Shown here: positions 14,274-31,088 of the stretch, piece by piece
Layout: each line of letters starts with the position of its first letter
Position numbering within the stretch: position 1 is the first letter of the stretch
Origin: Gemmatimonadota bacterium
GTDB taxonomy: Bacteria > Gemmatimonadota > Gemmatimonadetes > Longimicrobiales > Gaopeijiaceae
DNA length: 50,588 bases
Direction: 5' to 3'
Assembly: GCA_029262115.1 (NCBI GenBank)
Contig: JAJCZZ010000075.1
Coordinates: forward strand, 1 to 50,588
Made by a program: the position numbers and the translations under genes
The notes under the pieces: generated by a model
Database searches by the model: none
What the model saw: only the letters and a program-made list of their open reading frames with translations
Told to the model about the DNA's origin: nothing

Positions 14274-14356
14274 GCAGGGGACGACTCAGGTGAACGTGGG
14301 TGGGGGCACGAGGGAAAGTCCGCACCGGTGGCATCGGGCGCAACCGTTCGGGGGTC

Positions 14357-16309
14357 CTATGAGCGCCCGCGCAACCACGTCTCCAGGGTGAGAAGCGCCC
14401 ACAGCGCGTGGCCGTGGTCGACCGTGCCGCCCTGATGCTCGGCCCACATTCGCTCCACCGGCTCTCTCTCCAGCCACTCCCACGTACGGCTGTCCGGTCC
14501 GAAGAGTCGATCTTCGACCATCGGCTTCCAATGAGTACGGAACCAGATGGGGAGCGGGACGCCGAAGCCCTGCTTTCCACGCCCTGCGATGTCCGGCGGA
14601 AGGAGGTCCGGGAACGCGGCCTTGAGGAGCCACTTGAGCGTGCGTCCCCGTATCCGGTACCGGTCGGGCAGCACGGCGGCGAACTCCATCACCGCCGTGT
14701 CCAGGAAAGGCGATCGCAGTTCGAGTCCGTGGGCCATCGAACAGCGATCGGACTTCACGAGCAGATCCTCCGGGAGATAGGTCTCGAAGTTCAGCGCGAG
14801 CGTGCGGGACAGCGCCGATCGTCCGTCGTGCGATTCCCACCCCGCCCGAAAGCTGGCCGTGAGTTCCTCACGGTCGATCAGGGCACGGTACTCCGGACGA
14901 AGGAGCACGGAAACCCGATCGGGCATGAAGCCGATCCAGCGGAGCATGCGCTCCTCCGGCGGGAGGGCAGCCGCGTCGAAGAAGCGGGAGAAGCGCCGTA
15001 CCGGATGCCGGAAGTTCGGGTGGTGGGGTAGCGCCCGTCCCACCGTCGATCCGAGCCAGCTCGCCCACCGGGGAAGCCTCTCCGCGATGACCATCGCGGC
15101 CATCCTGGGATATCCGGCGAACATCTCGTCGCCGCCGTCCCCCGTCAGGGCGACCGTGACATGCTCCCGGGTGAGGCGTGACACGATGTGCGTGGGGATG
15201 GCGGAGGAGTCACCGAATGGCTGGTCGTACGCGTCGACCAATTCGTCGACCAGCTCCACCGACTCGGCGCCGACCGTGAATTCGGTGTGCTCCGTGCCGA
15301 AGCGCCGGGCCGCCATGCGGGCGTAGTGCGTCTCGTCGTAGGTGGGATCGTCCTCGAAGCCGAGCGAGAAGGTCCGGATCGGACCTTCGATACGCTCGCG
15401 CATCAGGCCCACGATCAGCGTCGAGTCGACCCCCCCCGACAGGAACGCGCCGAGCGGCACGTCCGCCACCAGCCGCCGTTCGACAGCATTGCCGAGAAGC
15501 TGTCGCACTTGCTCCACCACCTCGTCCTCGGTCGGGTCCGTACGGCCTGGGGGCCCGGAGCTCCAGTCGAGAGACCAGTAGGCCCGCGGGGTCATGGGCG
15601 GGCCCGCATCCGTCCGCGATCTTCCACCGGGGGACCGGTGTGTGTCCGATCCGGACATCCCCGGGACCCGGGCCCACATCCGGTGCCCCGGCTCGAGCGT
15701 GACGATCCCATGATAGAACGTCCCGGGTGCCGGCACGTATCCGTACGCCAGGTAGAACGGGAACGCCGTGGGGTCGATCCTGTCCTCGACCCAGGGCAGC
15801 GCCAGCAGCGCCTTGATTTCCGACGCGAACGCCAGACGACCACCCGCGGCGGTCCAGAACAGCGGCTTCTTTCCGGCCCGGTCGCGCGCCAGGAAGATCG
15901 TGCCGGCCGACTCGTCCCACACGGCAAACGCGAACATCCCGTCGAGCTGCTCCGGCAGCCCGTGACCCCACTCCAGCCACCCGTGGACGAGGACCTCGGT
16001 GTCGCTGGCGGTGCGGAACCGATGGCCGCGCCGCTCCAGGTAGGACCGAAGCGAGCGGAAGTTGTAGATCTCACCGTTGAAGACGACCTGGACGGAGCCG
16101 TCGGGGCTTCCCATCGGCTGATCGCCTGTGACCAGGTCGATCACCTTCAGTCGCGAGTGTGCGAGCAGGCACCGCCCGTCCGGGGAGGCCCAGGCGTCGG
16201 TCCCATCGGGCCCCCGGTGGCGCAGAGTGCGTGCCATAGAGACGCCGAGCGGTACAGCGAGGGGCTCCAGGCCATCCGCCAAGTGAACGACGCCGGCGAT
16301 CCCGCACAT
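14357..16309 (-). CDS. Asparagine-synthase-family glutamine amidotransferase
   Basis: A 650-residue AsnB-type enzyme. The class II glutaminase nucleophile is Cys2 in MCGIAG, with RHRGPDG at 31-37, NGEIYN at 78-83 and ARDRAGKKPLF at 141-151. The ATP-pyrophosphatase loop is SGGVDS at 291-296. Residues about 212-262, between the two domains, hold an Arg/Pro/Gly-rich insert. Family members make asparagine, but those inside polysaccharide loci (for example WbpS in Pseudomonas O-antigen clusters) are linked to amidation of uronic acids. Since this locus also makes a UDP-HexNAc uronic acid, a glycan amidation role is a reasonable inference. Its ATG directly follows the stop of the upstream membrane-protein gene. 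Confidence 0.9.
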   Translation of the reverse strand: MCGIAGVVHLADGLEPLAVPLGVSMARTLRHRGPDGTDAWASPDGRCLLAHSRLKVIDLVTGDQPMGSPDGSVQVVFNGEIYNFRSLRSYLERRGHRFRTASDTEVLVHGWLEWGHGLPEQLDGMFAFAVWDESAGTIFLARDRAGKKPLFWTAAGGRLAFASEIKALLALPWVEDRIDPTAFPFYLAYGYVPAPGTFYHGIVTLEPGHRMWARVPGMSGSDTHRSPGGRSRTDAGPPMTPRAYWSLDWSSGPPGRTDPTEDEVVEQVRQLLGNAVERRLVADVPLGAFLSGGVDSTLIVGLMRERIEGPIRTFSLGFEDDPTYDETHYARMAARRFGTEHTEFTVGAESVELVDELVDAYDQPFGDSSAIPTHIVSRLTREHVTVALTGDGGDEMFAGYPRMAAMVIAERLPRWASWLGSTVGRALPHHPNFRHPVRRFSRFFDAAALPPEERMLRWIGFMPDRVSVLLRPEYRALIDREELTASFRAGWESHDGRSALSRTLALNFETYLPEDLLVKSDRCSMAHGLELRSPFLDTAVMEFAAVLPDRYRIRGRTLKWLLKAAFPDLLPPDIAGRGKQGFGVPLPIWFRTHWKPMVEDRLFGPDSRTWEWLEREPVERMWAEHQGGTVDHGHALWALLTLETWLRGRS

Positions 16310-17287
16310 CTAGGCTGCCGGCTCCACCGAGGCATCCCGGCCGGTGACGCCGAAGACGGCCAGCGCCGCCAGCACTGGGAGCACTACCAGCAGAATGCGG
16401 ACCTCCCGCCAGATGCCGAATACAAGGTAGAGACCGAGGGCCGGCGGCACTGCCCAGGCCGCCCGGCGAAGAACAGGAGGGGCGACCGACAGACCGCGCA
16501 CCGCCGCCAGCCACAGAGGACCGAGAAACAGCCCGAACAAGAGCACCGCCCACGCCACCACCGCCGGGGCCGTGTTCGCCGCGAGGATCTGGGGGAGGGT
16601 GATCGCCGGGGGTGCCGGTCCCCGAAGCCAGCGAACAGCGCCGTAGGTAATCCCCCAGACAAGAAACGGGGATCCGGCCCACGCAATTCCCATCGGCTCG
16701 TCTTGGGGCCCATCGGTGCGCGACCATATCGCGGCCACCATGATGGCAGCGAGAACGGCGGTTTCGCGGTTCGAGGTGGCCAACGTGAGGGCGGCGAGCA
16801 CCACCCACCGCCTTCGCTCGATTGCCCACGACAGTGTCCATACAACCGCCGCCGCTTCCATGATGCTGAATGGTTGGAAGTAGTATGCGGGGTCGGCGAG
16901 AGAAAGGATCATGGCGGGAACCACGATCAGACTGCCCCACAGCGCTGTCTCGGAGCGGAACCATCGCCCGAGCAGTTTATACTGACCAACCAGAAGGCCG
17001 AGAGCCCCCGCAGTATTCCACGTGAGATAGACGAAGTGGAAGCTCCGCCGCTCACCCATGAGGGGGGACAGGATCGAGAGCCCACCCTCGGCCACCAACA
17101 CCGAGAGCATCCGATAGCGGTACGGCGAAGTGGCGACCCCTTCGAGAACGTCGTTGTGTCGCGCGATCCGTAGGTCGGTCTGGGGGACCTCGATGAGGAC
17201 CCAGTATACCAGCACGAGCAAGACGCCGACCCAGACGAGAAGCCAGGGCGCCCAACGCTCGACCGGATCGCGCGCCTGGCCGGTCAC
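16310..17287 (-). CDS. Polytopic membrane protein, possible GT-C-like glycosyltransferase
   Basis: A 325-residue protein with roughly nine hydrophobic segments and no firm family. The GTG start at 17287 overlaps the stop of the dprE1-like gene by 4 nt. After the first span comes a loop with acidic residues and the segment ATSPYRYRMLSVLV. Similar loops appear in poorly annotated bacterial GT-C-like proteins, which use polyprenyl-phosphate sugars as donors. As it directly follows the ubiA-dprE2-dprE1 set, it is a candidate user of lipid-linked arabinose, but this rests on position and topology alone. It could also be a transporter or flippase of the lipid donor. Confidence 0.7.
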   Translation of the reverse strand: MTGQARDPVERWAPWLLVWVGVLLVLVYWVLIEVPQTDLRIARHNDVLEGVATSPYRYRMLSVLVAEGGLSILSPLMGERRSFHFVYLTWNTAGALGLLVGQYKLLGRWFRSETALWGSLIVVPAMILSLADPAYYFQPFSIMEAAAVVWTLSWAIERRRWVVLAALTLATSNRETAVLAAIMVAAIWSRTDGPQDEPMGIAWAGSPFLVWGITYGAVRWLRGPAPPAITLPQILAANTAPAVVAWAVLLFGLFLGPLWLAAVRGLSVAPPVLRRAAWAVPPALGLYLVFGIWREVRILLVVLPVLAALAVFGVTGRDASVEPAA

Positions 17288-18666
17288 GAGCGGCTCCCGG
17301 GCACTCCACGGTGGGCCCCGCGCTCCCACCGTCGAACCAGGTTCGACGAAAAGACCCGGTCACGGCGACCCGGCAACCGACCCACGGACACCGCGTCCTT
17401 GGCCGCGTACACACGGGCGCCGTGATCCCGTCCGATCTGGTCGAGCGATCGGAGCAGTCGCATCAACCGCACGTAGTGCTCGCCACGGCCTACGGCGAAG
17501 TCGAGGGCGAGCGAATACCCGTCCAGGGGATAGCCGGCAGCTCCCTCCTCTGGAGTGTGTCGCTTCATCACGCCCAGGAACGAGCGGACGCCGGACGACC
17601 GTTGTTGGGCCAGGACAGCTGCGAACGCGTCGCGCGCGGCGTCACCCGGCACGAAGAGCTGATACTGCAAAAGCCCATCGGCACCATACGCTCGCTTCCA
17701 GCCAGGCATGTAGTCCAGGAGGAAGTGGAAAGCGGCGTGCGTCTGCCGGTACCGGCGGACACCACCCGCACGGGCCGTCACGTATTTTCCTGCGTTCAAC
17801 GTCCGGATGCCGGGTCCGTTCGTCAGGGGGCGCAGCGCCATCCATGCATGTCGCCTCGGGAGTACGCCGGCGAGGCGGCTCGGGAGCCTTTGAGCTTCGG
17901 CGTCCATCGCCTGGCCCGACAGTTGGTGGTCCGGCGGCAGATACCACGCGGAGTGGATCACGCCGCGTCCGGGCTTGGAGCCCGTGCAATCTATCCACGC
18001 CACGACGTAGTCCGCCTCACGGGCGCCTCGGTCGAGCGCCTCGAAGGTCTCTTCAAGGGACGACGTCGGACGGCCTTCGACATCCAGAAACCCACTGTGA
18101 ACCCGGCGAAGCGACAGGGTCACGTCGGTGATTGTGCCCGTCAGCCCCTGTGCACCCACGACATCGTCGACCCCGAGCGACCACACGTCCGAGTCCTCCG
18201 CTACAACTCCACGGTCGAGCCGTCGCTCTTCGCCGTTTCCCGTCACGAGACCGAGACCCTGCACCCACCGGCCCACGGCACCCGCACCGACATGGTTCTT
18301 TCCGTGGACGTTCATGGCCACGCAGCCGCCCAGGGTGGCTTTCATTGTGCCGGGGACGACGGCAGGCCACCAGCCGTGCGGGAGCGCTGAGGCCCAGAGG
18401 GCCTCGATCGTCACGCCCGCCTCTGCTCGCACGACGCCGCGATGAGGGTCGAGTTCCAGAATACGATTGAGACCTCGGAGGTCGAGGACCGCCCCCCCTT
18501 GGTTCAGGGCGGCGTCTCCGTAGCTGAGGCCGCCCCCCCGGGCGGCCACCGACAGACCCTTCTCGACGGCCTCGGTGATCGAGGCGGCGACCTCCTCGGC
18601 ATTCAGCGGCCGATAGACCGTCGACCGGGCGCGATTGGCCATTCCCCACCCGGTCAGCATCTCCAT
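17284..18666 (-). CDS. dprE1: Decaprenylphosphoryl-beta-D-ribose 2'-oxidase-like FAD enzyme (DprE1 family)
   Basis: Predicted FAD oxidoreductase that oxidises polyprenylphosphoryl-ribose at C2' to the keto intermediate. It has 460 residues from the ATG at 18666. An N-terminal LTGWG as in Mycobacterium DprE1 supports this start, and a longer frame would run into the preceding gene. The FAD-binding segments RGGGLSYGDAALNQGG (43-58) and VHGKNH (121-126) match the family, and WKRAYGADGLLQYQLFVP is close to the mycobacterial version. The benzothiazinone-target cysteine of M. tuberculosis (Cys387) corresponds here to Ala387 in SLALDF. The lysine of AAKD near 423 is kept. The C-terminal part appears shorter by my recollection of the mycobacterial protein. 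It overlaps the next gene by 4 nt. Confidence 0.85.
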   Translation of the reverse strand: MEMLTGWGMANRARSTVYRPLNAEEVAASITEAVEKGLSVAARGGGLSYGDAALNQGGAVLDLRGLNRILELDPHRGVVRAEAGVTIEALWASALPHGWWPAVVPGTMKATLGGCVAMNVHGKNHVGAGAVGRWVQGLGLVTGNGEERRLDRGVVAEDSDVWSLGVDDVVGAQGLTGTITDVTLSLRRVHSGFLDVEGRPTSSLEETFEALDRGAREADYVVAWIDCTGSKPGRGVIHSAWYLPPDHQLSGQAMDAEAQRLPSRLAGVLPRRHAWMALRPLTNGPGIRTLNAGKYVTARAGGVRRYRQTHAAFHFLLDYMPGWKRAYGADGLLQYQLFVPGDAARDAFAAVLAQQRSSGVRSFLGVMKRHTPEEGAAGYPLDGYSLALDFAVGRGEHYVRLMRLLRSLDQIGRDHGARVYAAKDAVSVGRLPGRRDRVFSSNLVRRWERGAHRGVPGSRS

Positions 18667-18677
18667 GCGAGGCGGCC

Positions 18678-19403
18678 TCACGGGGGCGCGATCCGCTTGA
18701 AGAGCGGCCTCGGCATCAGCCGGAGGGCCGACGACACGACCCACCACCACCCTGGCACGTAGAAGACGTCCCTGCCCCGATCGAGCCCCCGGACAATGAT
18801 CTCGGCGGCCTTCGACGCGGCAATCGAGGGCGGGAACCCGGGTACATCTCCGAGCATCCGGGTCCGCACCCAGCCGGGTTTGATGACCGAAACGCCCACA
18901 CCCGCCCCGTGCAGGGCGTGGCGCAGCCCCTCCAGGTACTGATGAAGAGCGGCTTTGGTCGCCCCGTAGATCGGATTTCCCTTGCGTCCCCGATCTCCGG
19001 CCACGGAGCCGATCGCCGCCAGTCGACCTTTGCCGGCTTCCACGAAGTAGTCGGCACCCCAGGACAGAACGTGCACGGCACCGATGAAGTTCACGTCGAC
19101 CATACGGCGAGTACCGCTCACGCCTGCCTCCATGACGCCCGCGCAGTAGACGAGCAGATCCATCTGACCGAGGGCGGCGAGGGCGCGCTCCAACGAAGGG
19201 ACGACGTCTCCGTCGCGGGCCACGTCGAGTACGCCTCCCACGATCGTCTCCGACGGGAACTCCGAACCGAGTTCACCGACGACCGCGTCCACCTTTCCCT
19301 CATCCCGGCCCAGAAGCGCGACCCGCCACGAGCGATCGAGGTAGACACGGGCGAGCGCCTTGCCGATTCCGTCGGTGGCGCCGACCAGAACGACGTGCTT
19401 CAC
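18678..19403 (-). CDS. dprE2: SDR reductase, DprE2-like
   Basis: A 241-residue classical short-chain dehydrogenase, predicted to reduce the keto intermediate made by the DprE1-like enzyme to polyprenylphosphoryl-arabinose. It shows GATDGIGKA at 8-16, an NAG-like CAG at 87-89, Ser133 in GSVAGDRGRKG, and Y146/K150 in YGATK. The C-terminus is hydrophobic and basic (YVPGWWWVVSSALRLMPRPLFKRI), as in DprE2, which suits membrane association. The GTG at 19403 is chosen because the next residues are the family's N-terminal strand. DprE2 identity depends on its place between ubiA and dprE1, since the SDR family alone is not specific. Confidence 0.82.
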   Translation of the reverse strand: MKHVVLVGATDGIGKALARVYLDRSWRVALLGRDEGKVDAVVGELGSEFPSETIVGGVLDVARDGDVVPSLERALAALGQMDLLVYCAGVMEAGVSGTRRMVDVNFIGAVHVLSWGADYFVEAGKGRLAAIGSVAGDRGRKGNPIYGATKAALHQYLEGLRHALHGAGVGVSVIKPGWVRTRMLGDVPGFPPSIAASKAAEIIVRGLDRGRDVFYVPGWWWVVSSALRLMPRPLFKRIAPP

Positions 19404-19443
19404 GTCCGGACCCCATCGCTGACGCCGGCCAACCCGACGCTCT

Positions 19444-20385
19444 TCACGTGGCCAGCCACACGGCGGCGCCGAACACCGCCAGACAGATCCAACTGGCCCG
19501 GTCCCGCAGCGCGAACGCGACGGGATCGTCCGACGTCTCGCCCCGGTGCGCCAAGACCCACGCCCGCGCGAGCCAGTAGAGGATGACCGGAAGCCCCAGC
19601 CAGAGCACGTCGGGTCGTGAGTAGAGCCGGATGACGTCGTCGCCGGTGATGTACAGGCAGTACACGAGCGCCGCCGCCACCCCACTGCCGAGCCCGAGCG
19701 ACACGAGAATGGGAAGGTCGTCCACCCGCCATCCCCGTCCGTCCAGGGCCTCCAGCGCCCGAGCCTGCGCACCCCACGACTCGATGGCCCGTTTCAGGAG
19801 CGCGAGCGAAAGGAACAGGAAGACCGAGAACGCGAGGAACCATCGGGACAGGGGCACCTCCGCAGCCGCGGCGCCGGCCACGACACGGACGGTGTACAGG
19901 GCGGAGAGCACCAGGACATCGAGCGCCAGCAGTCGCTTGAGCCCCATGGAGTAGGCGGTCGTGGTGACCAGGTAGGCGCCCCAAACGGCAAGAAAGAGTC
20001 GGGGCAGCGTCCACGCGAGGGCGAGTGATCCGAGCACGAGGACAAGGGCCGCTACCATCGCGGTCCCCTTCGAGAGGGTGCCCGCCGCCAGCGGCCTGTG
20101 GCGCTTCGTAGGGTGGAGGCGATCGACTTCGATGTCGGTGAGGTCGTTCATCAGATACGTCGCCGACGCCAGAGCGGACATGCTGGCCGTGGCTGCCACG
20201 ACAGCAACGAAGACGTCCACCTCGGACAGCCTGTGGGCGGCCAGCGCCGGAAGCAGTACGAGGAGGTTCTTCGACCACTGGTGCGGTCGGAGGGCTCGGA
20301 GGAGTGGCGGCAAGGTGGGCGGGGTGGGTGCGATGGGACCGATCAGGCTCGGGCTAACGTGCGGGAACCGGGTCCGATCCGCCAC
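19444..20385 (-). CDS. UbiA-family prenyltransferase, polyprenyl-phosphate phosphoribosyltransferase-like
   Basis: A 313-residue integral membrane protein with about eight to nine spans. It carries N80-D81-x-x-D84-x-x-x-D88 followed by RLHPTKRHRPLAAG, which is the form found in decaprenyl-phosphate phosphoribosyltransferase (Rv3806c) rather than in quinone-pathway UbiA. It also has YSMGLKRLLALDVLVL and LYTVRVVAGA. The predicted reaction is transfer of 5-phosphoribose from PRPP to polyprenyl phosphate. The GTG start overlaps the preceding glycosyltransferase gene by 32 nt and no better internal start is available. The phosphatase that would remove the 5-phosphate is not seen nearby. Confidence 0.85.
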   Translation of the reverse strand: MADRTRFPHVSPSLIGPIAPTPPTLPPLLRALRPHQWSKNLLVLLPALAAHRLSEVDVFVAVVAATASMSALASATYLMNDLTDIEVDRLHPTKRHRPLAAGTLSKGTAMVAALVLVLGSLALAWTLPRLFLAVWGAYLVTTTAYSMGLKRLLALDVLVLSALYTVRVVAGAAAAEVPLSRWFLAFSVFLFLSLALLKRAIESWGAQARALEALDGRGWRVDDLPILVSLGLGSGVAAALVYCLYITGDDVIRLYSRPDVLWLGLPVILYWLARAWVLAHRGETSDDPVAFALRDRASWICLAVFGAAVWLAT

Positions 20386-21463
20386 CGCGTGCGAGCGCCC
20401 GCTCGAGCACGCCCCGGTAGGTCGCGCGAGTCGCGCGCACGGAGTAGCGCGCCTCGACCGTCTCGCGCGCCGCCGCCCCCAACCGCGCCCGAAGCCCGGG
20501 GTCGCGGATCAAGGCGCGGAGGTGCCGGAGCCACTCTTCTTTCGAATCGGCCAGAAACCCGTTCTCGCCGCTCGCGACGATCTCCAGATTCGTGCCCACA
20601 CGTTCCACGACCGGAGGAATGGCGAGCCCCATGTACTGCAGAGCCTTCAGACCGCTCTTTCCGAGGACCCACTCCTCGTGCGGCAAGGGGTACAGCCCGA
20701 TGTCGATCTCCGACAGGTCCTCCACCTCGGTCTCCCGGCGCCACGGGAGCGCTTCGACGTCCACGCCGGGAATTGAAAAGGAGGCGTCCCCGATCACGCG
20801 CACGCGCACCCCGTCGCTCGCTTGAAGCTCCCGGAGAACGTCGTCGAGGAGGTGGAGGTAGGGGGATGTCGAGTGGCTTCCGCTCCACCCCAGCACCACT
20901 CCATCCGTCGTGGCTCGATGCGGACGAGGACGGTACACGTCGGTATCGATGGTGGAGGAGATGTTCGTGACGCGTTCCGTGTACCGCTCCGCGAAGTCGG
21001 CCAACACCTGCGTGCACACCACCGCTTCATCCGCAAGCGACAACAGCTCGGGGACCTTGGACGGAGCCCGCAGCCAACGCATGAACGGATTCGCGCTCGA
21101 CGCGTGCGGAAGGTGGATCATGTCGTCCACGTCGTACACCAGGGGCACGCCGGCCCCAGTCAAGCGACGCTCGAGCGTCGGCGGGCCAACCGGAACCGCC
21201 TCGAGGTGGAGGTAGACGAGGTCGGCGGCGAGGGCGGCACGCAGGTCGGCCCGCCGCCGCCGGAGCCCTCGCACGAACGCGGCCGCCTTGTTGACGACGC
21301 CCCCCCTGTAGAGCCCGCGCCACGCCTCCTCGTCCCAGAAAGGCCGGACGTCCACAGACCATCCCTGAGCCTCCCAGTCGGGAAAGTACTGCTCGTACTT
21401 GAGGCGCTGGCTGGGAGCCCGGTCTCGCGGGTAGGGGCAGAGCACGACCATCGACCGCTTCAC
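20354..21463 (-). CDS. Glycosyltransferase family 4
   Basis: A 369-residue GT-B protein. The N-terminus (VVLCPYPRDRAPSQRLKYEQY) and VYDVDDMIH are characteristic of a GT4 subgroup in polysaccharide loci. The donor-site region reads WVLGKSGLKALQYMGLAIPPV, where a lysine replaces the second glutamate of EX7E, a known variant in this subgroup. It is coupled to the upstream glycosyltransferase gene by a 4-nt overlap and overlaps the ubiA gene at its 3' end. The sugar is not predictable. Confidence 0.88.
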   Translation of the reverse strand: MKRSMVVLCPYPRDRAPSQRLKYEQYFPDWEAQGWSVDVRPFWDEEAWRGLYRGGVVNKAAAFVRGLRRRRADLRAALAADLVYLHLEAVPVGPPTLERRLTGAGVPLVYDVDDMIHLPHASSANPFMRWLRAPSKVPELLSLADEAVVCTQVLADFAERYTERVTNISSTIDTDVYRPRPHRATTDGVVLGWSGSHSTSPYLHLLDDVLRELQASDGVRVRVIGDASFSIPGVDVEALPWRRETEVEDLSEIDIGLYPLPHEEWVLGKSGLKALQYMGLAIPPVVERVGTNLEIVASGENGFLADSKEEWLRHLRALIRDPGLRARLGAAARETVEARYSVRATRATYRGVLERALARGGGSDPVPAR

Positions 21464-22656
21464 GGCCGCGCCCTGAGAACGTCCGCGTACAGCCGCGAGT
21501 ACGCGTCGACGCCCAGTGCCAGGTCGTACCGCCGGGCCGCCGACGCGCGACAGCGCTCGACGATGTCCGGCGCGGCGAGGACCGCGAGCAGGCGGCGCGC
21601 GGCCACGTCGAAGCCGTCACGGTCGAGCGCCGGGACGACGGCTCCGACGTCGTCTGCGCGGATCACGGCGGCGCTGTCTCCGACCCCCTCGTTCGCGAGA
21701 ACCGGACGTCCAACGGCCAGCGACTCGCCGAACTTGGTGGCAGCCGAAGCGATCTTGGAGCCTTCCGGTCGAATCAGGAAAAACGTGGCCGTCGATCGTG
21801 TGAGCACGTCTGGGACCTCGGCGTACGGGACGCTCCCGACCTGGAGGCGCGCCGCCGCGATCCCCGCTCGATGGCCCGCTTGGCGCACCTCGTCCGGGTC
21901 ACCGTTCACCACGAACTCGATAGTGGAGCCGGGCGACAGTTCCAGAAAAGTGCGGGCCAGTTCCATCATGGGATCCAGGAGATACCAGGTGCCGACAGAG
22001 CCGATGTACGTGAGTCGTGGTGCTCCGGCGGGCAGAGGAGAAGGCTGGAACCGTTCCAGGTCGGCACACGTCGGAATCACCGCGACCGTTGCGGTGCTGC
22101 CCACTCGAGTCAGGAGCGGATCAAGCACGGGCAAGCTCGCCTCCGTCAGTGTGACCACGCCGCCGGCGTCCCGAAGGAGATCGGCTTCCAGCCTCTTGGT
22201 GACAGCGTAGACCGGACCGTCCGACCGCCACAGCCCCCCGTCGACCCGCTCCTCCGGGTAGAACCCGCGCATGTCGAAGATGTAGGGAATTCCCAGGGCC
22301 CCGCCGACGCGACGAGCGATGAACGCGGAAGGATACGAGCGCGCATGGACGAGGTCGAAACCCTCGGCGGCGGCGAGACGTCGCGCCACCACCACGCCAC
22401 GCCTGAGGTCGCCGGCCGTACCGAGCAGCGGGGGCGTCTTGTGGTATTCGAGGGGATGCCAGTGGATTCCGGACGCCGCCAGCCGGTCGGTCATGGCGCG
22501 CCGATCGGCTTCATGGGCCCAACGCACCGGCTTCTCGAAGGTGATCAGGTGGAACCGCACCCCCGCCTTCGTCAGACCCTCCAGGTAGGGTACGACCTGA
22601 GAATTCCCGAGCGGATCGAGCGCGCCGTCGTACGAGATGTACAAGACGGAGATCAT
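21460..22656 (-). CDS. Glycosyltransferase family 4
   Basis: A 398-residue GT-B enzyme. The ATG at 22656 puts the family strand VLYISYDGALDPLGNSQV at the N-terminus. A longer frame would need a TTG at 22683 overlapping the upstream gene and is less likely. The acceptor domain has VHARSYPSAFIARRVG, and the donor domain has YIGSVGTWYLLDPMMELA and a KFGESLAVGRPVLANEGVGD variant of the donor-binding loop. It lies in a tight run of transferases, 19 nt after the GT39-like gene. Substrates unknown. Confidence 0.88.
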   Translation of the reverse strand: MISVLYISYDGALDPLGNSQVVPYLEGLTKAGVRFHLITFEKPVRWAHEADRRAMTDRLAASGIHWHPLEYHKTPPLLGTAGDLRRGVVVARRLAAAEGFDLVHARSYPSAFIARRVGGALGIPYIFDMRGFYPEERVDGGLWRSDGPVYAVTKRLEADLLRDAGGVVTLTEASLPVLDPLLTRVGSTATVAVIPTCADLERFQPSPLPAGAPRLTYIGSVGTWYLLDPMMELARTFLELSPGSTIEFVVNGDPDEVRQAGHRAGIAAARLQVGSVPYAEVPDVLTRSTATFFLIRPEGSKIASAATKFGESLAVGRPVLANEGVGDSAAVIRADDVGAVVPALDRDGFDVAARRLLAVLAAPDIVERCRASAARRYDLALGVDAYSRLYADVLRARP

Positions 22657-22675
22657 GCCGCGGCCCCACACACGA

Positions 22676-24013
22676 TCATCCAAGCCCGAGGATCGACCGG
22701 AGCCCCTGCTTCAAGGGGTCGGCGGCGACGGCGAGAGCGACGACGGTCAGAGCGGTTGCAGTCGCGGCGGCCACGGCCGTGTGCCGTCCGAAGCGGCGGG
22801 ACGTGACCACCAGTGCGGACGCGGCCCCGATCGCAAGAAGGGGGTCGACCGGCCCTCTGAACCTCGGACTCCCATAGAAGACGAGGGCGATCAACTGGAA
22901 GTAGAGCACGGGAAGCCAGATCGGCCAGCTCTCCACGATGGCCGTGCGCACCGTGCGGCCCTGCGGTCCGGGGACATCCTCCTGTCCGATCGATCCACGA
23001 CCGCGCGCCACGAAGGGGAGGACGGCGGCCCAGAGCAAGATGAAGAGATACGTAGGGTTCAATGCGCCCTCCCAGGGAAGGATCTCCCAATCGAGAGGGA
23101 TCCAGAAGAACGCGATCTTCAAGGCCGCCAGGCGCGGCAACTCAGCAGGACGGCCGGCCAGGCTCCGCACCGTCGCGTCCACGAGGTACGAGGACGCCTC
23201 GACTTCGCTCAACTCAGCCGCGGCTCGGGTGACCTGGTCCGACGGCAACATACCGAACTTCCAGCCGTCCAACGGATGGTTGCCGCCGTACAGTGTCGCC
23301 CCCCCCTGCGTCGCCACCGGTACGAACGCATCGTGAACGCGCGCGTTGCGCAACGCCCATGGGGCCAGCGTCATCGCGTAAGCCATAAGGAGAACGGCCA
23401 GGCGACCCAGCGGCCAACGGAATCGACCGGAGGGACTCGAGCTCCGGTTGGCCACCAGCCACATCGACACGACGGCGAATGGGAAGAGCACGAGGGCACC
23501 TCGGGCCAGCGTTCCCAGTCCGAGCAGCACTCCCGCACCGATGGCCGGGCCGAGGCCCCCTCCCCTGGCACGCAGGAGCACAACCACGGACGCCATCAAC
23601 AGCGTGGTGAACAGTGTCTCGCTCAGATGGTGTGACACGGAGAAGATCTGCGCCAACTCCACCGCAGTGAACAGGGCCGCCAGCGACCCCACGACACGTC
23701 CGGCGGTCCACAGCCCCGCCAGGTAGACAAGGCCGACGGTCAGAGTCGACAGCCCGGCCTGGACGAGACGTACGGCCGGCTCCCCACCGATCGTCCCTTG
23801 GACGACCGCGAGAAACGCAGGGTAGAGCGGCGGCCGCCAGGACGTGGGTCGTCCGAGTCCGTCCAGGTATCCCCGGCCCTCCCGGATGCCGTTCGCAAGA
23901 CGCTGGTAGTCGGCGGCGTCAGCCTCGAGGGGCGCCGCCCAGGAGAGCGCGACCCCCACGCGCAGAACCAGCGCCAGGACCAGGATCCACAGGAGTCCGT
24001 CACGAAGCCGCAT
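22676..24013 (-). CDS. Polytopic membrane glycosyltransferase, GT39/PMT-like
   Basis: A 445-residue membrane protein with about ten hydrophobic segments. After the first span, a periplasmic loop contains acidic residues (PLEADAADYQRLANGI) and then GYLDGLGRPTSWRPPLYPAFLA. This is the usual layout of GT39/ArnT-type enzymes, which use polyprenyl-phosphate sugars and place the catalytic acid in that loop. The ATG at 24013 overlaps the upstream gene by 14 nt; the longer frame adds a basic non-family stretch. It could add a sugar from a lipid carrier on the periplasmic side, and so is another possible user of the lipid-arabinose made by the dpr genes. Confidence 0.82.
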   Translation of the reverse strand: MRLRDGLLWILVLALVLRVGVALSWAAPLEADAADYQRLANGIREGRGYLDGLGRPTSWRPPLYPAFLAVVQGTIGGEPAVRLVQAGLSTLTVGLVYLAGLWTAGRVVGSLAALFTAVELAQIFSVSHHLSETLFTTLLMASVVVLLRARGGGLGPAIGAGVLLGLGTLARGALVLFPFAVVSMWLVANRSSSPSGRFRWPLGRLAVLLMAYAMTLAPWALRNARVHDAFVPVATQGGATLYGGNHPLDGWKFGMLPSDQVTRAAAELSEVEASSYLVDATVRSLAGRPAELPRLAALKIAFFWIPLDWEILPWEGALNPTYLFILLWAAVLPFVARGRGSIGQEDVPGPQGRTVRTAIVESWPIWLPVLYFQLIALVFYGSPRFRGPVDPLLAIGAASALVVTSRRFGRHTAVAAATATALTVVALAVAADPLKQGLRSILGLG

Positions 24014-25121
24014 AGACGGCCTCCAGCCGATCGATCCAGCGCGCGGCATCGAACTCCTCGGCCCGCGCGGCGGCAATAGAGCCCTCCCGGCGGCGCAGGG
24101 CGGGATCGGCCGCGAGGACCTCAAGTTCCTGCGCGAGCGCCCCCTCGTCGTCGATCGGAACAAGCCGCGCGGCCGTCCCCGTCACCTCCGGGATCCCGCC
24201 TGCATCCGTCGCGATGATCGGGAGCCCCGCGGCCATCGCCTCGAGCAACGCGAGTCCGAACGCCTCGAAACGGGACGGAAAGGCGAAGATGTCGGCACAT
24301 GCGTAGAGCCGAGCGGGGTCGGGCACCGATCCGACGAACCGAACCCGCTCATTGATATCCAGCGAGCGAGCCAACTCCCGCATCTCGGCCTCGAGGGCAC
24401 CCTGCCCCGCCAGGACGAGCCGGAGCTCCGGCCGGACCGACGAGGCGTCAGCAAACGCGCGGAGCAGGACGTCATGGCCCTTCTGCCGATGGAACCGACC
24501 GACATGAAGGACAACCACGTCCGTGGGCGCGACCCCGAGCTCGGTCCGGGCGACGGTTCGATCGATCGCGTCGAGTCGACCCCGAAACCCTTCGACGTCC
24601 ATGTAGTTGTAGATCACTTGGATGTCCGACCATCCGAAGTGCTCGCGAAAGTCGTCACGGACCGCGTCCGAAACGGCCAACAACATGCCCCCGGTCCACG
24701 CCCTGGAGAGTCGATCCAAGAGCTTACGTGCCTTGAACCGGAGCGTGCCGTTGTCCTCGTACGTGTAGTCCGGATTGTGCAGCGTCGACACCAGTCGTAC
24801 CGGGCGGCGCGCGGCGAGGCGGCCCACCACGTTCGCGAAGAACAGGTGGGTGTGTAGCACGTCGATCGATCGGCGCCCTAGCAGCGCCCGCAACCGCAGC
24901 GACGTAGTGACCATGCTCGCGGGACCCGCGAATCGGAGGTCATGGAATGGGGTGGAGAGTGCGTCCAGCTCTGGCACGAGGTCGTGGGGCCCCCGCAAAC
25001 AAGCCACCTCGGGGTTGAACCGGGCGCGGTCGAGCTTCTCCACGGTCGTCAGCAGGAGGCGCTCCGCTCCCCCGCGGCCGAGCGACTCGATCAGAAAGAG
25101 GACGCGCAGCGGACGCTCCAC
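24000..25121 (-). CDS. Glycosyltransferase family 4
   Basis: A 373-residue GT4 enzyme with a complete signature: N-terminal VLFLIESLGRGGAERLL, middle VVVLHVGRFHRQKGHDVLL, and the donor loop FEAFGLALLEAMAAGLPIIATDAGGIPEV with both EX7E glutamates. The GTG start immediately follows the TAG stop of the upstream membrane protein gene. Family members transfer many different sugars, so substrate and linkage are open. Confidence 0.92.
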   Translation of the reverse strand: MERPLRVLFLIESLGRGGAERLLLTTVEKLDRARFNPEVACLRGPHDLVPELDALSTPFHDLRFAGPASMVTTSLRLRALLGRRSIDVLHTHLFFANVVGRLAARRPVRLVSTLHNPDYTYEDNGTLRFKARKLLDRLSRAWTGGMLLAVSDAVRDDFREHFGWSDIQVIYNYMDVEGFRGRLDAIDRTVARTELGVAPTDVVVLHVGRFHRQKGHDVLLRAFADASSVRPELRLVLAGQGALEAEMRELARSLDINERVRFVGSVPDPARLYACADIFAFPSRFEAFGLALLEAMAAGLPIIATDAGGIPEVTGTAARLVPIDDEGALAQELEVLAADPALRRREGSIAAARAEEFDAARWIDRLEAVYAAS

Positions 25122-26549
25122 CTACCTGGCCGGTCCCTGGAGACGCACGTTCGAGCGAGCGGCGACGCGCTGCCGCACGGACAGCCGGGCTTCCCTACGA
25201 AGACGCCAGATCGCGTACATGTCCTGGATTCCCACCGCGCAGAAGACGAAAGCCAGCGGCATGATTTGCGCACGGTGCCGGTAGGCCGTGCCGACATTCC
25301 CCTCAACCATGGCGTAGGCGACTGTCGTGACCATCAGGATCGCGGCCGGCACAGTATACGACCTCGCGTCGTGTCTCAGAGCCAGGATCGCTCCCCAAAT
25401 TCCCGCGGGAACCAACAGGTACCAGAGAAGAACCTCCGGAAGGGTGAACGTTTGCAAAGCGCCGGAAATCGACCATGGAAACGGCGCGAAGAGGAAGTAC
25501 ACCAGCCCAACCGGAAGGAAGAGGAGCGCGCCGACCGGCGACGACACGTCGAAGTTCTCTCCGTATGCGGAGCCCGCTCCGAAGGCGAGATCCTGTCGCA
25601 GGTACTCGACGCGTTGAAGGGAAGGCTCTTCGAACAGGCTGCCGCCCGCCCCCGTCATCTGAAGCGCGACGACAAGGACCGACATCAATACGACACCCAT
25701 TGCGAGCGCACGGAGCGGGCGCCGACTATTGCCCATGGCAATACCGGCAACGGCGGGGATGCCGACGATTACGGTGAGATACTCCCGGAAGACGGCAAGG
25801 AGAGCGAGTGGAACGAATGCCATGACCAGATCCCACACCTTCCTCCGCCGCTGAAATCGAACCGCCAGCATAACGACGAGCGAGATCAGGAAGATCGCAG
25901 GGGCCTCCCGCACGTTCAGGACCGACCAGAGGAGGAGCGAGGGAAAGAACAGCGTCAGCCACACCGCCGTCCGGGCGATCCTCGGCTGATTCGGGACGAT
26001 ACTGGCGAGCGTGTAGTAGACGGGAATGGCACACCACGTCATGAGGAATATGTTGACCACCGCCACCGCCGCTTTCGCCGGCCCGAAGATCAGGAAGGCG
26101 ACCGCATTCATGGTCGGGAAGCCGACCTGGAGGCTACCGCGCAGCTTGCTCGGCACGGGCCCACGGCCCTGCCAGCTATCCAGGAGGCCCTGACCCAAGA
26201 GCTCAAACGAACCCTGGTCCGGGGCGAACACATACGGACCGACCGTCTGGTGGATGAGGGCGAAGAGCAACAGACGGACGCCCGCCGCCAGGAGCATCAC
26301 CGGTAGCAGGAATTGCCCGACCGATCGATCCGTCTGGAGCTTCGCCAGCACCAGCGAGATCATGATCCCCACGCCACCCAGGAGCGTCACCGCGAATCGG
26401 GAGTTGGGGTCGCTGACGCCGAGCGCCGCCGCCGCCAATCCCACCACGGCCACGAGGGGCGCGAGCGTGAGGACTGCCGGGAGCCCGGCCCGCCCGCGCC
26501 CGCCGTTTCGGACGCGAAGTTCCTGCGGGGCGTGGTTCAAAAAGGCCAT
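25122..26549 (-). CDS. Polytopic membrane protein, possible polysaccharide polymerase (Wzy-like)
   Basis: A 475-residue protein with about ten to eleven hydrophobic segments and a large loop after the third or fourth. Near the C-terminus, GNVGTAYRHRAQIMPLAFVF resembles the conserved end of many polysaccharide-locus membrane proteins, where the Arg-His-Arg pattern is typical of polymerase or GT39-like proteins. FAPDQGSFELLGQGLLDSW near 110-130 is similar to GT-C first loops. I cannot decide between chain polymerase and membrane glycosyltransferase. It is followed without a gap by the GT4 gene and preceded by an 82-nt gap in which nothing clear is seen. Confidence 0.75.
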   Translation of the reverse strand: MAFLNHAPQELRVRNGGRGRAGLPAVLTLAPLVAVVGLAAAALGVSDPNSRFAVTLLGGVGIMISLVLAKLQTDRSVGQFLLPVMLLAAGVRLLLFALIHQTVGPYVFAPDQGSFELLGQGLLDSWQGRGPVPSKLRGSLQVGFPTMNAVAFLIFGPAKAAVAVVNIFLMTWCAIPVYYTLASIVPNQPRIARTAVWLTLFFPSLLLWSVLNVREAPAIFLISLVVMLAVRFQRRRKVWDLVMAFVPLALLAVFREYLTVIVGIPAVAGIAMGNSRRPLRALAMGVVLMSVLVVALQMTGAGGSLFEEPSLQRVEYLRQDLAFGAGSAYGENFDVSSPVGALLFLPVGLVYFLFAPFPWSISGALQTFTLPEVLLWYLLVPAGIWGAILALRHDARSYTVPAAILMVTTVAYAMVEGNVGTAYRHRAQIMPLAFVFCAVGIQDMYAIWRLRREARLSVRQRVAARSNVRLQGPAR

Positions 26550-26631
26550 CTCCTGGCGAGTCGGGCAGGGAGTCGAACAATGGTGGGCAAGGCGAAACCG
26601 GTCAACGCGGGGAACGGCGACTCAGCGCGGC

Positions 26632-27486
26632 TCAAGTGGCCCGGAGGAGAAGGTTCCCGTGCGAGCCGGGCCGCCACTCTCCCGTTAGCCGCCGCACCTC
26701 GGGGGTCGACCCGATGTCGTAGGCGCGGTAGCCGATCGGCGACAGCAGGCCGGACAACTCGAGGGCGGCGGCCCGGGTCAGCACTTCCATCACCAGGGCT
26801 GGACGGTGCTCTCGCAAGGTGTCCATCATGCCTCGAATCACACTCGCCTCGTGTCCCTCGACGTCGATCTTGACGAGATCAGGGGCGATACCATGGGCTT
26901 GAGCGTAGTGATCCATTGTGACAGCGGGGACCTGCTGGGGCGCTACTTGATGCCCCGTCAAGAAGTCCGCCTCGAGGGAGGCCGAGAGCGGGCTTCGGCC
27001 CGTCGGAGTGAAGAGCGTGACCACACCATCGGTGTCGGACACCGCAGCGCGCACGCACTCCATTCGCTCTCCGTTCAGCCGGGAATTCTCCACCAGGCGC
27101 TCGAAAACCTCCGCCACTGGCTCGAACGCCACCACGCGCGCCTGCGGACTGACGGACGCGCCCACCAAGCCGAAGAGCCCGGAGTGGGCGCCGACGTCGA
27201 GGATACATCGAGCGTCGGCGGCCAGCGTCCTCCATAGGGCCACGGTCTCCGCTTCCCATCCGTCATCGAGTCCTCTCCAGAAGAGCTCGTTCTCCAACTG
27301 GTTTCCCCGGTGCCTCATGCGGAAGCCACCGCCCTCCCCCGTGACCCGGAACACTCCATCGAAGTGAAGATGCCGGAAAACGGGTTCGGGGATGGAAGAC
27401 ACGCGGCGCAGCACTTCGAAGACCGGCTGCTTTCCCGGGACCAACGAGTACGCTCGGCGTGCGAGGGCGCGGAATTCGACGGTCAT
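26632..27486 (-). CDS. FkbM-family SAM-dependent methyltransferase
   Basis: A 284-residue methyltransferase of the FkbM family, which commonly O-methylates sugars in surface glycans and antibiotics. The SAM-binding motif is DVGAHSGLFGLVGA, followed by VVAFEPV. The diagnostic DLVKIDVEGHEASVIRGM lies towards the C-terminus. The ATG at 27486 is preferred to the in-frame GTG two codons upstream. It stands between two non-coding gaps of about 80-90 nt. It could cap or decorate the repeat unit made by this locus. Confidence 0.88.
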   Translation of the reverse strand: MTVEFRALARRAYSLVPGKQPVFEVLRRVSSIPEPVFRHLHFDGVFRVTGEGGGFRMRHRGNQLENELFWRGLDDGWEAETVALWRTLAADARCILDVGAHSGLFGLVGASVSPQARVVAFEPVAEVFERLVENSRLNGERMECVRAAVSDTDGVVTLFTPTGRSPLSASLEADFLTGHQVAPQQVPAVTMDHYAQAHGIAPDLVKIDVEGHEASVIRGMMDTLREHRPALVMEVLTRAAALELSGLLSPIGYRAYDIGSTPEVRRLTGEWRPGSHGNLLLRAT

Positions 27487-27575
27487 GGGCACGCTCGCTC
27501 TCGTCGTCCGGGGGCCAGGGTGGCCATGAACCAGCAGATGGAGGTCATCGTCGACGCGGCCACGGAGTCATCGGC

Positions 27576-29006
27576 TCATGAACCGGATAGCATCCGACGG
27601 AGTCGCACGTCCCACACTGCCGTAGCAGCCATCGCCACCCCGATGAAGGCAACGAACCCAACCGTACCGGCCACCGGCGCCATCGTCTGGCTGCCCAACA
27701 TCAGGGACACTACAAGGAGTCCGACGGACGCCGCGAGCGGCCGGGCCGCCGCGCGAATGAAGCTGACGTCACCCAGGGCACGGTGCATCAACGGGAGACG
27801 CAACGCCGGTCCGAGAACCAGAGCATACGCCAGGGCGTACAGCGCACCCCCAAGGGGCCCCTGCCAGTAGATGAGGGGAACACCTACCGCGAGAACCAGG
27901 AGTGCGTTCGCCACCGAAACCTTCCCCACATACCGCGTCTGGTCGGACAGAAAGGCGAGGGCACCCCAGTTCGTTCCGGAGACCGCGCGGATCCCGAAGG
28001 CAACCCCGAGAACAGACAGCGGAGCGGCAGCGCCCACCCAATCGGAGCCCAGCAAGAAGTGAAGCAGTGGACGCGAAAAGCCCGCGAGCCCCATCCCCAA
28101 CGGTAGCGACACGAACGCGATGATCCGAGTCGAGTCGGCGAAGGCCCGGCGACGCTCCTCCAGCGTATCAAGGGCGCCGAGCACCGGCAGCGTGATCCGG
28201 TCCAGCGCCAAGGCAACTTCCTGAATCAGGGCGGGCACGTAAAACGCGACCGTGTAGACGCCCAACGCCGTATTCCCGTGGAAGTATCGCACCGCCAGAT
28301 CATCGGCACGCTCACCCACGATGGCGAAGCCCGAGGTCCCGAACATCGGCACGGTGAATCGAAACGCGCCAGCGAACTCCTCCCGGTTCCACCGTATCGG
28401 GGGGAGGGGCCGGGCCAACCAGATCAGCCCGACGCCCCGCACGATCGTCATGACCGCGTGTCCCGCCGCCATCGAAGCGGCTGGTCGAACCCCACTCCGG
28501 AAGAGGACCACAGTCGCCCCGAGGCCGAGGACCATCGCCACGGCCTCCGTGACCTTCGGTCGCAGGAAGTCCAGACGTCGATCCAGGACGGCTTGGTACA
28601 TCCCGGTGGGCCCGTCCAGCAGGGACAGCGTCAGGATGTACACGACGGTGGCCAGGTCCGGATCGCCGAGCCAGCGCCCGAGAGCGGGAGCCAGCAAAGC
28701 CATGGCCGCGGCCGTGGCCAAAGAAAGAGCGGTCGTAAGTATGAGACCGGCCGTGAGCGCCGCCGACAGGCGAGACTCCTCCACCTTGACGGCGTACTGA
28801 CGGAATCCAGATTGGAGCAGCAGCAACCCGGGCGCCAGTACGATCAGCCCGGTGGAGTACGCACCGTACTGCTCAGGGAGGAACAGCCGTGCCAGCACAA
28901 CGAGGCGGATCATACTGAACCCGCGCAGGACTGCCGTTCCCCCCACCTCCACGAAGGCCTTCCGCACGACCAGACGTGCGGTGGCCTCCCCCGTGTCACC
29001 CGTCAC
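27576..29006 (-). CDS. Polysaccharide flippase (Wzx/MATE-like, MOP superfamily)
   Basis: A 476-residue membrane protein with about 12-14 spans. The N-terminal region (VGGTAVLRGFSMIRLVVLARLF and the EQYGAYSTGL segment) is typical of lipid-linked oligosaccharide flippases, followed by VYILTLSLLDGPTGMYQAVLDRRLDF. It should move undecaprenyl-diphosphate-linked repeat units across the inner membrane. The GTG start at 29006 overlaps the methyltransferase stop by 4 nt; the longer frame upstream lies over that gene and is not used. With the ligase/polymerase gene, it supports a Wzx/Wzy-type route. Confidence 0.9.
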   Translation of the reverse strand: MTGDTGEATARLVVRKAFVEVGGTAVLRGFSMIRLVVLARLFLPEQYGAYSTGLIVLAPGLLLLQSGFRQYAVKVEESRLSAALTAGLILTTALSLATAAAMALLAPALGRWLGDPDLATVVYILTLSLLDGPTGMYQAVLDRRLDFLRPKVTEAVAMVLGLGATVVLFRSGVRPAASMAAGHAVMTIVRGVGLIWLARPLPPIRWNREEFAGAFRFTVPMFGTSGFAIVGERADDLAVRYFHGNTALGVYTVAFYVPALIQEVALALDRITLPVLGALDTLEERRRAFADSTRIIAFVSLPLGMGLAGFSRPLLHFLLGSDWVGAAAPLSVLGVAFGIRAVSGTNWGALAFLSDQTRYVGKVSVANALLVLAVGVPLIYWQGPLGGALYALAYALVLGPALRLPLMHRALGDVSFIRAAARPLAASVGLLVVSLMLGSQTMAPVAGTVGFVAFIGVAMAATAVWDVRLRRMLSGS

Positions 29007-29860
29007 CGGCGACCCACGACGAGAAGGGTGTTCGCAAGCCGTGCTCGGCGGCTCACCCGGTACACAAGCCCACTGATCCGATCCAGCCCGTTGCCCAGGA
29101 GGGGCGGCACCGACCCCCATCCACGGACTTCCGGAACATCACGTAGGTCCGTGGAGCCGCCGGTCGACACCTCCTCCACCGTGAGGCCCGCCTGCTCGAA
29201 CAACATCGTGAGGCCGCGAGGGCCGAGATGGTGAAGATGGCCGTATTGAGCGAGGTCGAAATAGGACCACCATCGTCCGTGCAACCGGGCAGTCAGACCC
29301 TCCGCGTTCGGCATGGAGGCGACAACCAGGCCACCGGACCGCAGGCGGGCGACGGCTTCCACGAGGAGTTCACGAGGCCGCGGAACGTGTTCGAGTACAT
29401 CCCAAAACGTGACGGCATCGAAGCTCGGGACGGCGCGCAGCGACGAGAGCGTCCCACACACGAGGCGAGGAGCGTGCAGCCGGAGACGCGCGCTCTGGAG
29501 CGGGTCGATCGCCAACTCGACGCCCACCCCACTCCAGCCCACCGACTCCGCGGCGTCCAGGAACCGTCCGTCCCCACACCCGACGTCGAGCACGCGGCCG
29601 GTGGATCCCTTCAGCCTCACCAGGTCGCGGGCGCGCTCCGGCCAGACTCGCTCGTCGGGTCGGTCGAATACGGCCGCCCACTTCCCCTCTCCGTGCTCGC
29701 GGGCGTAGCGTGCCTGGAGTTCCGCTTCCGTAGGAACCGGGTGGACGAACTGAGACCGGCAGCTTCCGCAGCGCCGAACGGGAACCGACCATGCGTTGTC
29801 CACCACGTTCGTTTCGTCTGCCCCGCATATCGGGCAATACGTCGGGCACTCGTCGGTCAC
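29003..29860 (-). CDS. Class I SAM-dependent methyltransferase with an N-terminal Zn-ribbon
   Basis: A 285-residue protein. It starts with a four-cysteine ribbon (CPICG and CGSC), then has the SAM motif LDVGCGDGRFLDAAESVGWSGVGVE, FDAVTFWDVLEHVPRP and a Y/H-rich HLHHLGPRGL segment, as in sugar or lipid C/O-methyltransferases (UbiG-like). I chose the GTG at 29860. In-frame ATGs at 29914 and 29920 would add residues written with AGA, CTA, CAA and GCA, unlike the codon use of the gene, and would leave almost no space from the divergent plus-strand gene. It overlaps the flippase gene by 4 nt. Confidence 0.85.
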   Translation of the reverse strand: MTDECPTYCPICGADETNVVDNAWSVPVRRCGSCRSQFVHPVPTEAELQARYAREHGEGKWAAVFDRPDERVWPERARDLVRLKGSTGRVLDVGCGDGRFLDAAESVGWSGVGVELAIDPLQSARLRLHAPRLVCGTLSSLRAVPSFDAVTFWDVLEHVPRPRELLVEAVARLRSGGLVVASMPNAEGLTARLHGRWWSYFDLAQYGHLHHLGPRGLTMLFEQAGLTVEEVSTGGSTDLRDVPEVRGWGSVPPLLGNGLDRISGLVYRVSRRARLANTLLVVGRR

Positions 29861-29926
29861 CGTATCATAGGACCCCCACCGACCTCTTGCTTGCTGTAGT
29901 CTTCGGAACGACATAAACATACGCCG
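29861..29926. promoter_or_regulatory. Divergent promoter region between the methyltransferase and the plus-strand glycosyltransferase
   Basis: This is the only head-to-head junction in the window. The 66 nt are less GC-rich than the genes around them. On the minus strand TATGAT stands directly before the methyltransferase GTG. On the plus strand TAAACAT ends 7 nt before the glycosyltransferase ATG. Neither start has a good Shine-Dalgarno sequence, so both transcripts may be leaderless. The -35 regions are poor. Confidence 0.4.
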
Positions 29927-31084: not shown

Positions 31085-31088
31085 GCGC

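Follow-up and report, generated by a model that had tools for sequence, protein, structure and literature searches.

A UbiA gene with a divergent DprE1/DprE2-like pair in a Gemmatimonadota polysaccharide locus: a possible source of lipid-linked pentofuranose

Three consecutive minus-strand genes, encoding a UbiA-family protein, a short-chain dehydrogenase/reductase (SDR) and an FAD oxidase, lie within a polysaccharide locus on a contig of 50,588 nucleotides (JAJCZZ010000075.1, assembly GCA_029262115.1; the whole of this stretch is called the window). Our results favor the hypothesis, which we hold with moderate confidence, that these genes form a module making a lipid-linked pentofuranose, most likely polyprenyl-phosphate-D-arabinofuranose, for the surface polysaccharide of the surrounding locus. 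The family identities, the gene overlaps, the conserved active sites and the polysaccharide setting are supported by the sequence itself. By its RpoA the host genome is a member of Gemmatimonadota: the protein is 60% identical to that of Candidatus Kutchimonas denitrificans (Gemmatimonadota), 58% to that of a same-class genome, and at most 46% to those of the named Proteobacteria, Actinobacteria, Acidobacteria, Planctomycetes, Chlorobi, Myxococcota and Entotheonella genomes (Nocardioides, 44%). The initial annotation had described a UbiA protein with an Rv3806c-like pattern, an SDR and a DprE1-like FAD protein, outside Actinobacteria and inside a polysaccharide locus with no mycobacterial cell-wall genes nearby. 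Coordinates, motif and solved-structure matches bear out the gene set, the RpoA identities (60% to Candidatus Kutchimonas vs 44% to Nocardioides) bear out the host, and no Emb-type genes were recognised nearby.

We propose that the UbiA protein would use 5-phosphoribosyl-1-pyrophosphate to synthesise polyprenyl-phosphate-ribose-5-phosphate, from which a phosphatase encoded elsewhere in the genome would remove the 5-phosphate. The FAD protein would then oxidise C2 and the SDR reduce it with inverted stereochemistry, giving polyprenyl-phosphate-D-arabinofuranose. The lipid donor would be flipped, and a GT-C enzyme of the locus, at a guess the 325-aa polytopic protein or the PMT_2-type protein of Table 1, might add the pentose to the glycan. 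In Gemmatimonadota the FAD/SDR pair would be a variant that is either the sister of canonical DprE1/DprE2 or has diverged deeply from it, standing in the canonical pair's place beside a similar UbiA. The new part is modest, namely the divergent pair in Gemmatimonadota, and the headline arabinose claim is already published: lipid-linked arabinofuranose outside Actinobacteria is established for rhizobial Nod factors, Pseudomonas pilin and gram-negative glycans (PMC2443382, PMC5080398, PMC12369383, PMC11127046). Consequently, of the arabinose supply suggested by the initial annotation, a polyprenyl-phosphate pentofuranose module remains plausible but the novelty does not.

The three enzymes

Judged by motif and family cut-off, the UbiA protein is a member of the polyprenyl-phosphate phosphoribosyltransferase (PPPRS) family. 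It contains NDLTDIEVDRLHPTKRHRP, an exact instance of the NDxxDxxxDRLHPTKRxRP pattern; the more general NDxxDxxxDRxHPxKxxRP motif spans residues 80-98, with N80, D81, D84, D88, R89, H91, K94, R97 and P98 invariant. The NCBIfam model NF006088 was matched with 363.5 bits (cut-off 351) over profile positions 186-480 of 482 only; the N-terminal half of the model, a HAD domain in relatives, is absent, and the protein thus lacks the fused HAD phosphatase (PRP) domain of the Citrobacter ORF15 type. Among all solved structures the best match was the DPPR synthase 8j8j (E=1e-32), the next other UbiA reaching 0.008. DPPRS-specific models gave scores below their cut-off (146 vs 207), and in the tree the protein falls on the side of the PPPRS rather than the DPPRS proteins, clustering with HAD-fused Gemmatimonadota PPPRS whose loci have canonical DprE1/DprE2. 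It is 55-57% identical to the UbiA proteins of Candidatus Kutchimonas and of loci L032 and L034, all of them HAD-fused and accompanied by canonical FAD and SDR proteins. Two other UbiA genes of the same genome, presumably quinone or heme enzymes, score far higher with the general UbiA model.

The best solved-structure match of the FAD protein was DprE1 (4aut, E=8e-59; next non-DprE1, 4e-13), and that of the SDR was DprE2 (21gq_C, E=6e-22; next SDR, 1e-15). With the DprE1 model NF053785 the FAD protein reached 258 bits against a cut-off of 500. Its counterparts in two further loci, L029 (genome G223) and L030 (G147), lie with it at 258-265 bits, and the canonical L032 protein and rhizobial NoeH at 418 and 401; since NoeH fails too, the cut-off seems to be set for actinobacterial members. 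For the SDR the scores were 132.6 bits with NF053786 (DprE2; cut-off 250) and 157 bits with NF005489 (PRK07102; cut-off 267), so that both thresholds were missed. NF053786 gave 115-133 bits for the SDRs of the window, L029 and L030, 188 for that of L032 and 192 for rhizobial NoeO, which scored 336 bits with PRK07102. The FAD proteins of the three loci form a clade of their own with a support of 99, as do the three SDRs with a support of 98. A further fragment, 73% identical, was found in the same-genus genome G001.

Conservation of residues was assessed against 54 canonical FAD proteins, in which 94 positions are at least 85% conserved; 34 of these are altered in at least one divergent member. 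The FAD protein of the window carries the changes R58L, D130N, P280A, Y/F314H and P316L and keeps Y60, H132, K134, W230, W323, Q334, Q336, K367, D389 and K418. Across the window, L029 and L030, R58 is replaced by leucine, but Y60, H132, K134, W230, Q334, Q336, K367 and K418 are identical; H132, K134, Q334, Q336, K367 and K418, among others, we take to be FAD/active-site or pocket residues of DprE1. In the SDR, N119, S147, R152, R154, N157, Y160 and K164 are kept (21gq_C numbering), that is, the N-S-Y-K residues (N119, S147, Y160 and K164, presumably the SDR catalytic set) and the RxRxxN stretch.

The DprE1 and DprE2 identities given in the initial annotation hold as best solved-structure matches, but both proteins lie far below the curated cut-offs (133 vs 250 for the SDR, 258 vs 500 for the FAD protein) and below the rhizobial members. 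The UbiA protein clears NF006088, misses the DPPRS-specific models and groups with the phosphoribosyltransferases rather than with quinone enzymes; the FAD protein has its best hits to DprE1 and not to sugar-lactone oxidases. In most trees, however, the FAD protein and the SDR fall beside and not within the DprE1/DprE2 clades, and inversion at C2 is therefore something that we infer. A separate DprE1-like FAD protein (L031 8972-10507, genome G028; 258 bits) has no UbiA nearby and carries Glu for both Q334 and Q336; it possibly represents a third branch with another substrate.

Gene order, distribution and known systems

The UbiA stop is separated by 40 bp from the GTG start of the SDR gene at 19403. 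The SDR stop overlaps the GTG start of the FAD gene (GTGA at 18681), and the FAD stop in turn overlaps the GTG start of the gene for the 325-aa polytopic protein (GTGA at 17287).

A search with a single degenerate pattern for UbiA proteins of this kind yielded at least 572 confirmed relatives among genome contigs, and the best 80 were taken for locus counts. Within the fetched flanks a DprE1-like FAD gene was present in 41/80 and both FAD and SDR genes in 30/80. These loci belong to Proteobacteria, Chlorobi, Planctomycetes, Myxococcota, Gemmatimonadota and one Nocardioides; loci of Dadabacteria, Entotheonella and Desulfatibacillum showed the FAD gene but no SDR gene within those flanks. When 18 loci from the phylum were added, a FAD gene stood near UbiA, mostly with an SDR gene and across many phyla, in 58 of the 98 loci, which argues that the grouping is not due to chance. 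The commonest order is UbiA-FAD-SDR (40 loci). The order UbiA-SDR-FAD is common only to the window, L029 and L030 among these loci, and all three have a UbiA protein without a HAD domain. A GtrA relative occurs in 26 UbiA loci. Within the phylum the set is sporadic, with UbiA matches in 8/59 relatives and strong DprE1-type hits in about 20/298 genomes. Since the UbiA protein is close to HAD-fused UbiA proteins that have a canonical pair, the simplest explanation would be that the epimerase pair was exchanged beside a similar PPPRS, in which case the divergent pair would have a lipid-linked ribose of the same kind as its substrate. Derivation of the divergent FAD protein from the canonical Gemmatimonadota FAD proteins of L032, L034 and L041 was rejected by an approximately unbiased (AU) test (p 0.005).

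A close parallel is found in rhizobia. The noeCHOP genes of Azorhizobium ORS571 resemble mycobacterial genes (PMC2443382), and deletion of noeP in the noeCNHOP operon of strain IRBG74 abolishes Nod-factor arabinosylation (PMC5080398). We located the latter operon on the IRBG74 plasmid (L138), next to nodABC, as UbiA-GtrA-FAD-SDR-hypothetical. It shares with the window an unfused UbiA, a DprE1-like FAD protein, a DprE2-like SDR and a downstream polytopic protein, it lies outside Actinobacteria, and it feeds an extracellular glycoconjugate. It differs in its order (UbiA-GtrA-FAD-SDR-NoeP), in its canonical FAD and SDR proteins (401/192 bits vs 258/133 in the window) and in having GtrA and NoeP, whereas the genome of the window has no GtrA match and no detectable NoeP homologue. 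The noeN gene has been proposed as the missing phosphatase (PMC5080398). It apparently corresponds to a gene whose annotation is GtrA-family protein (L138 8576-8998, on the symbiosis plasmid); given a GtrA relative in 26 of the UbiA loci, noeN looks more like a lipid-donor flippase than a phosphatase.

The mycobacterial decaprenylphosphoryl-arabinose pathway (Rv3806c DPPRS, DprE1, DprE2) uses enzymes of the same three types, and their main active-site residues agree with those in the window. Mycobacterial Cys387 is Ala in the FAD protein of the window, as in 47/54 canonical rows. The window differs in a UbiA on the PPPRS side, in a divergent FAD/SDR pair and in the lack of any Emb or Aft gene recognised in the locus. 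Kelly et al. (2024) reported that systems of PPPRS, flippase and GT-C protein are widespread, that DprE1/E2 homologues are tied to arabinofuranose-containing glycans, and that the identity of the pentose is set by the epimerase gene (PMC11127046). Like those three-component systems, exemplified by Citrobacter O1/O2, the window combines epimerases with a UbiA of PPPRS type in a polysaccharide locus that also encodes a GT-C-type protein; unlike them, its UbiA lacks the HAD domain, no dedicated flippase is adjacent, and the FAD/SDR pair is divergent. All three components have candidates in the locus (PPPRS, Wzx-like and PMT_2-type proteins), neither of the latter two being tied to pentose. In Pseudomonas paraeruginosa, the D-arabinofuranose carried by pilin is produced by a set of genes on a genomic island (PMC12369383). 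That island (PA7/Pa5196) is likewise a gram-negative supply of D-arabinofuranose by DPPRS-type genes with a PPPRS lacking HAD, but it serves type IV pilin through TfpW and has a separate phosphatase, PA7_6246. Within Gemmatimonadota, the loci of Candidatus Kutchimonas, G202 and G219 have UbiA proteins 55-57% identical to ours but HAD-fused, with canonical FAD and SDR proteins in the order UbiA-FAD-SDR. Literature searches on arabinose or DprE1 in Gemmatimonadota brought up nothing relevant.

Product of the module and competing explanations

Two lines of evidence make an arabinofuranose-lipid module the best explanation. One comes from the genes: the solved-structure matches, the UbiA family cut-off, the grouping of UbiA with PPPRS from loci that have a canonical pair, the conserved FAD pocket and SDR residues, and the start-stop overlaps. 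The other is comparative, and consists of the clustering of FAD and UbiA genes in 58/98 loci, the presence of the same enzymes in rhizobial noeCNHOP, and the link of DprE1/E2 with arabinofuranose glycans (PMC5080398, PMC11127046). Several observations weigh against it. In most trees the FAD clade branches (99 support) outside the group that contains M. smegmatis DprE1 together with the UbiA-adjacent FAD proteins of other phyla, and several positions invariant in the 54 canonical proteins are altered. AU tests of joining the FAD clade with M. smegmatis DprE1 gave p 0.395 for a large set and p 0.0008 for a reduced set, and in one tree M. smegmatis DprE1 was unresolved against the divergent clade with NoeH still separate, so that placement outside the DprE1 clade is favored but not settled. 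The SDR lies outside the 42-row clade that holds Mtb DprE2 (support 96), in a tree with a weak root and long branches. A single HAD-phosphatase-domain query of the window's own genome, run without a positive control, gave no match; the genome has no GtrA-type match that could be a GtrA/Rv3789-type flippase; and no recognised arabinosyltransferase was found, with no Emb/Aft type recognised in the locus. The product is probably arabinofuranose.

The divergence of the pair could also mean a different chemistry. We consider it rather unlikely that the FAD/SDR pair constitutes an epimerase family of its own for polyprenyl-phosphate-pentoses, a sister group of DprE1/DprE2, which acts on another carbon or on a 5-phosphorylated lipid to make a donor not yet known. 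In the more specific form in which the pair inverts C3 of polyprenyl-phosphate-ribofuranose (xylofuranose) or both C2 and C3 (lyxofuranose), and so supplies a pentofuranose other than arabinose, the idea is unlikely. The separate FAD and SDR clades, the changes at otherwise invariant positions (Y/F314H and P316L, close to the substrate pocket, among them), the apparent exchange of the pair beside a UbiA close to Gemmatimonadota PPPRS with a canonical pair, and the role of the epimerase gene in setting pentose identity (PMC11127046) would all fit. However, known C3 epimerisation is carried out by one GalE-type SDR and not by a FAD/SDR pair (PMC11127046), the DprE1 pocket residues H132, K134, Q334, Q336, K367 and K418 are all kept, and divergence alone does not imply a new specificity.

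It seems improbable that the pair takes the lipid while this is still 5-phosphorylated, with dephosphorylation later or never, although this would account for the absent phosphatase domain: unfused UbiA, divergent pair and UbiA-SDR-FAD order co-occur in the window, L029 and L030, the related L032, L034 and L041 loci combine a HAD-fused UbiA with a canonical pair, and the HAD query of the window's genome was empty. Yet canonical pairs are also found with unfused UbiA proteins, including rhizobial NoeC, the HAD search was one query lacking a positive control, and the four PAP2-family matches in the genome, two of them above cut-off, could provide a phosphatase. The low scores with the curated DprE1 and DprE2 models would also suit an unrelated trio of quinone or heme prenyltransferase, sugar-lactone-type oxidase and generic SDR with no link to pentofuranose lipids. 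We rejected this highly improbable reading on the solved-structure best hits and their margins, the PPPRS cut-off passed by the UbiA protein, the far better fit of the two other UbiA genes to the general model, and the clustering conserved across phyla.

If the set makes a pentofuranose lipid, published systems of this kind would extend to Gemmatimonadota, a phylum with little-studied surface glycans. The pair is a deep relative of DprE1/DprE2, the target of benzothiazinone drugs, in which catalytic residues are kept and pocket neighbours altered, useful for the question of C2 specificity. A different product would mean a new sugar donor; otherwise the set is a routine example of a widespread module that is already known.

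Candidate partners and the surrounding locus

Assignments of an arabinosyltransferase, a phosphatase and a flippase are guesses. The 325-aa polytopic protein sits where the arabinosyltransferase NoeP sits in rhizobia. A Pfam scan gave no significant match, and no homologues besides itself were found in 298 phylum genomes or in plasmids. Its likeness to NoeP in position and motif is striking, yet the hhalign probability was 1.6%, barely above that of control membrane proteins, and homology is not claimed. Structure predictions were too poor for a fold search both for this protein (pLDDT 51.5, pTM 0.24) and for the PMT_2-type protein (pLDDT 43), relatives of which have a UbiA-FAD-SDR set close by in Chromatiaceae (L067) and a UbiA gene close by in L079. 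In L030 the stretch immediately upstream of the divergent UbiA-SDR-FAD set (12404-14329) encodes a 641-aa protein of about 12 transmembrane helices, containing DDAMISMRYAKNLVEGYGLAWN...VEGYT. This protein has no match in Pfam or among solved structures, and a search lacking a positive control found no relative in the window's own genome; it is a possible pentofuranosyltransferase.

Table 1. Features of the window in and around the UbiA-SDR-FAD set
Feature	Position	Strand	Basis
UbiA-family polyprenyl-phosphate phosphoribosyltransferase, PPPRS/DPPRS-like, 313 aa, without HAD phosphatase domain	19444..20385	-	NF006088, 8j8j match, invariant residues
DprE2-like SDR reductase, 241 aa, divergent clade	18678..19403	-	NF053786/NF005489 scores, 21gq_C match, tree
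DprE1-like FAD oxidase, 465 aa from GTG 18681, divergent clade	17284..18681	-	NF053785 score, 4aut match, trees
Polytopic membrane protein, 325 aa, candidate GT-C or flippase	16310..17287	-	GTGA overlap with FAD stop; NoeP-like position
PMT_2-type GT-C membrane protein, 445 aa, candidate pentofuranosyltransferase using lipid donor	22676..24013	-	PF13231, 26.0 bits vs cut-off 26.1
GT4-type cytoplasmic glycosyltransferase; upstream gene, overlaps UbiA start	20354..21463	-	Pfam PF00534/PF13692
Wzx-like flippase, candidate exporter of glycan or lipid donor	27576..29120	-	PF13440, 121 bits
Central polysaccharide locus: glycosyltransferases, FkbM methyltransferase, asparagine-synthase-like amidotransferase, Wzy_C-type protein	14357..33646	-	Pfam scans
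Single glycosyltransferase on opposite strand within central polysaccharide locus	29927-31084	+	Pfam scans

The polysaccharide locus, in which Pfam scans recognised glycosyltransferases, Wzx-like and Wzy_C-type proteins and sugar epimerases, abuts a ribosomal protein operon. The set of G223 lies in the same place, a few genes from rplQ. Polysaccharide genes occur downstream of rplQ in both the window (33646-34976) and L029 (4936-11430), their number being large in one and apparently small in the other, and the stretch may be a site of variable glycan genes next to the ribosomal operon. A small protein of no known function, with a single transmembrane helix, adjoins rplQ in both (window 34001-34621; L029 5324-5884). 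Elsewhere in the window, two overlapping minus-strand open reading frames in different frames (1376-3873) both resemble RCC1-type repeats, one of them preceded by a lipoprotein-like start and a Big-like region, which suggests one gene split by a frameshift, either real or from assembly. The protein encoded at 5307-7232 combines a WecA/MraY-type sugar-phosphate transferase domain (PF00953) with extra membrane helices and a possible nucleotide-binding region, and a second initiating sugar transferase is apparently encoded at 152-1039.

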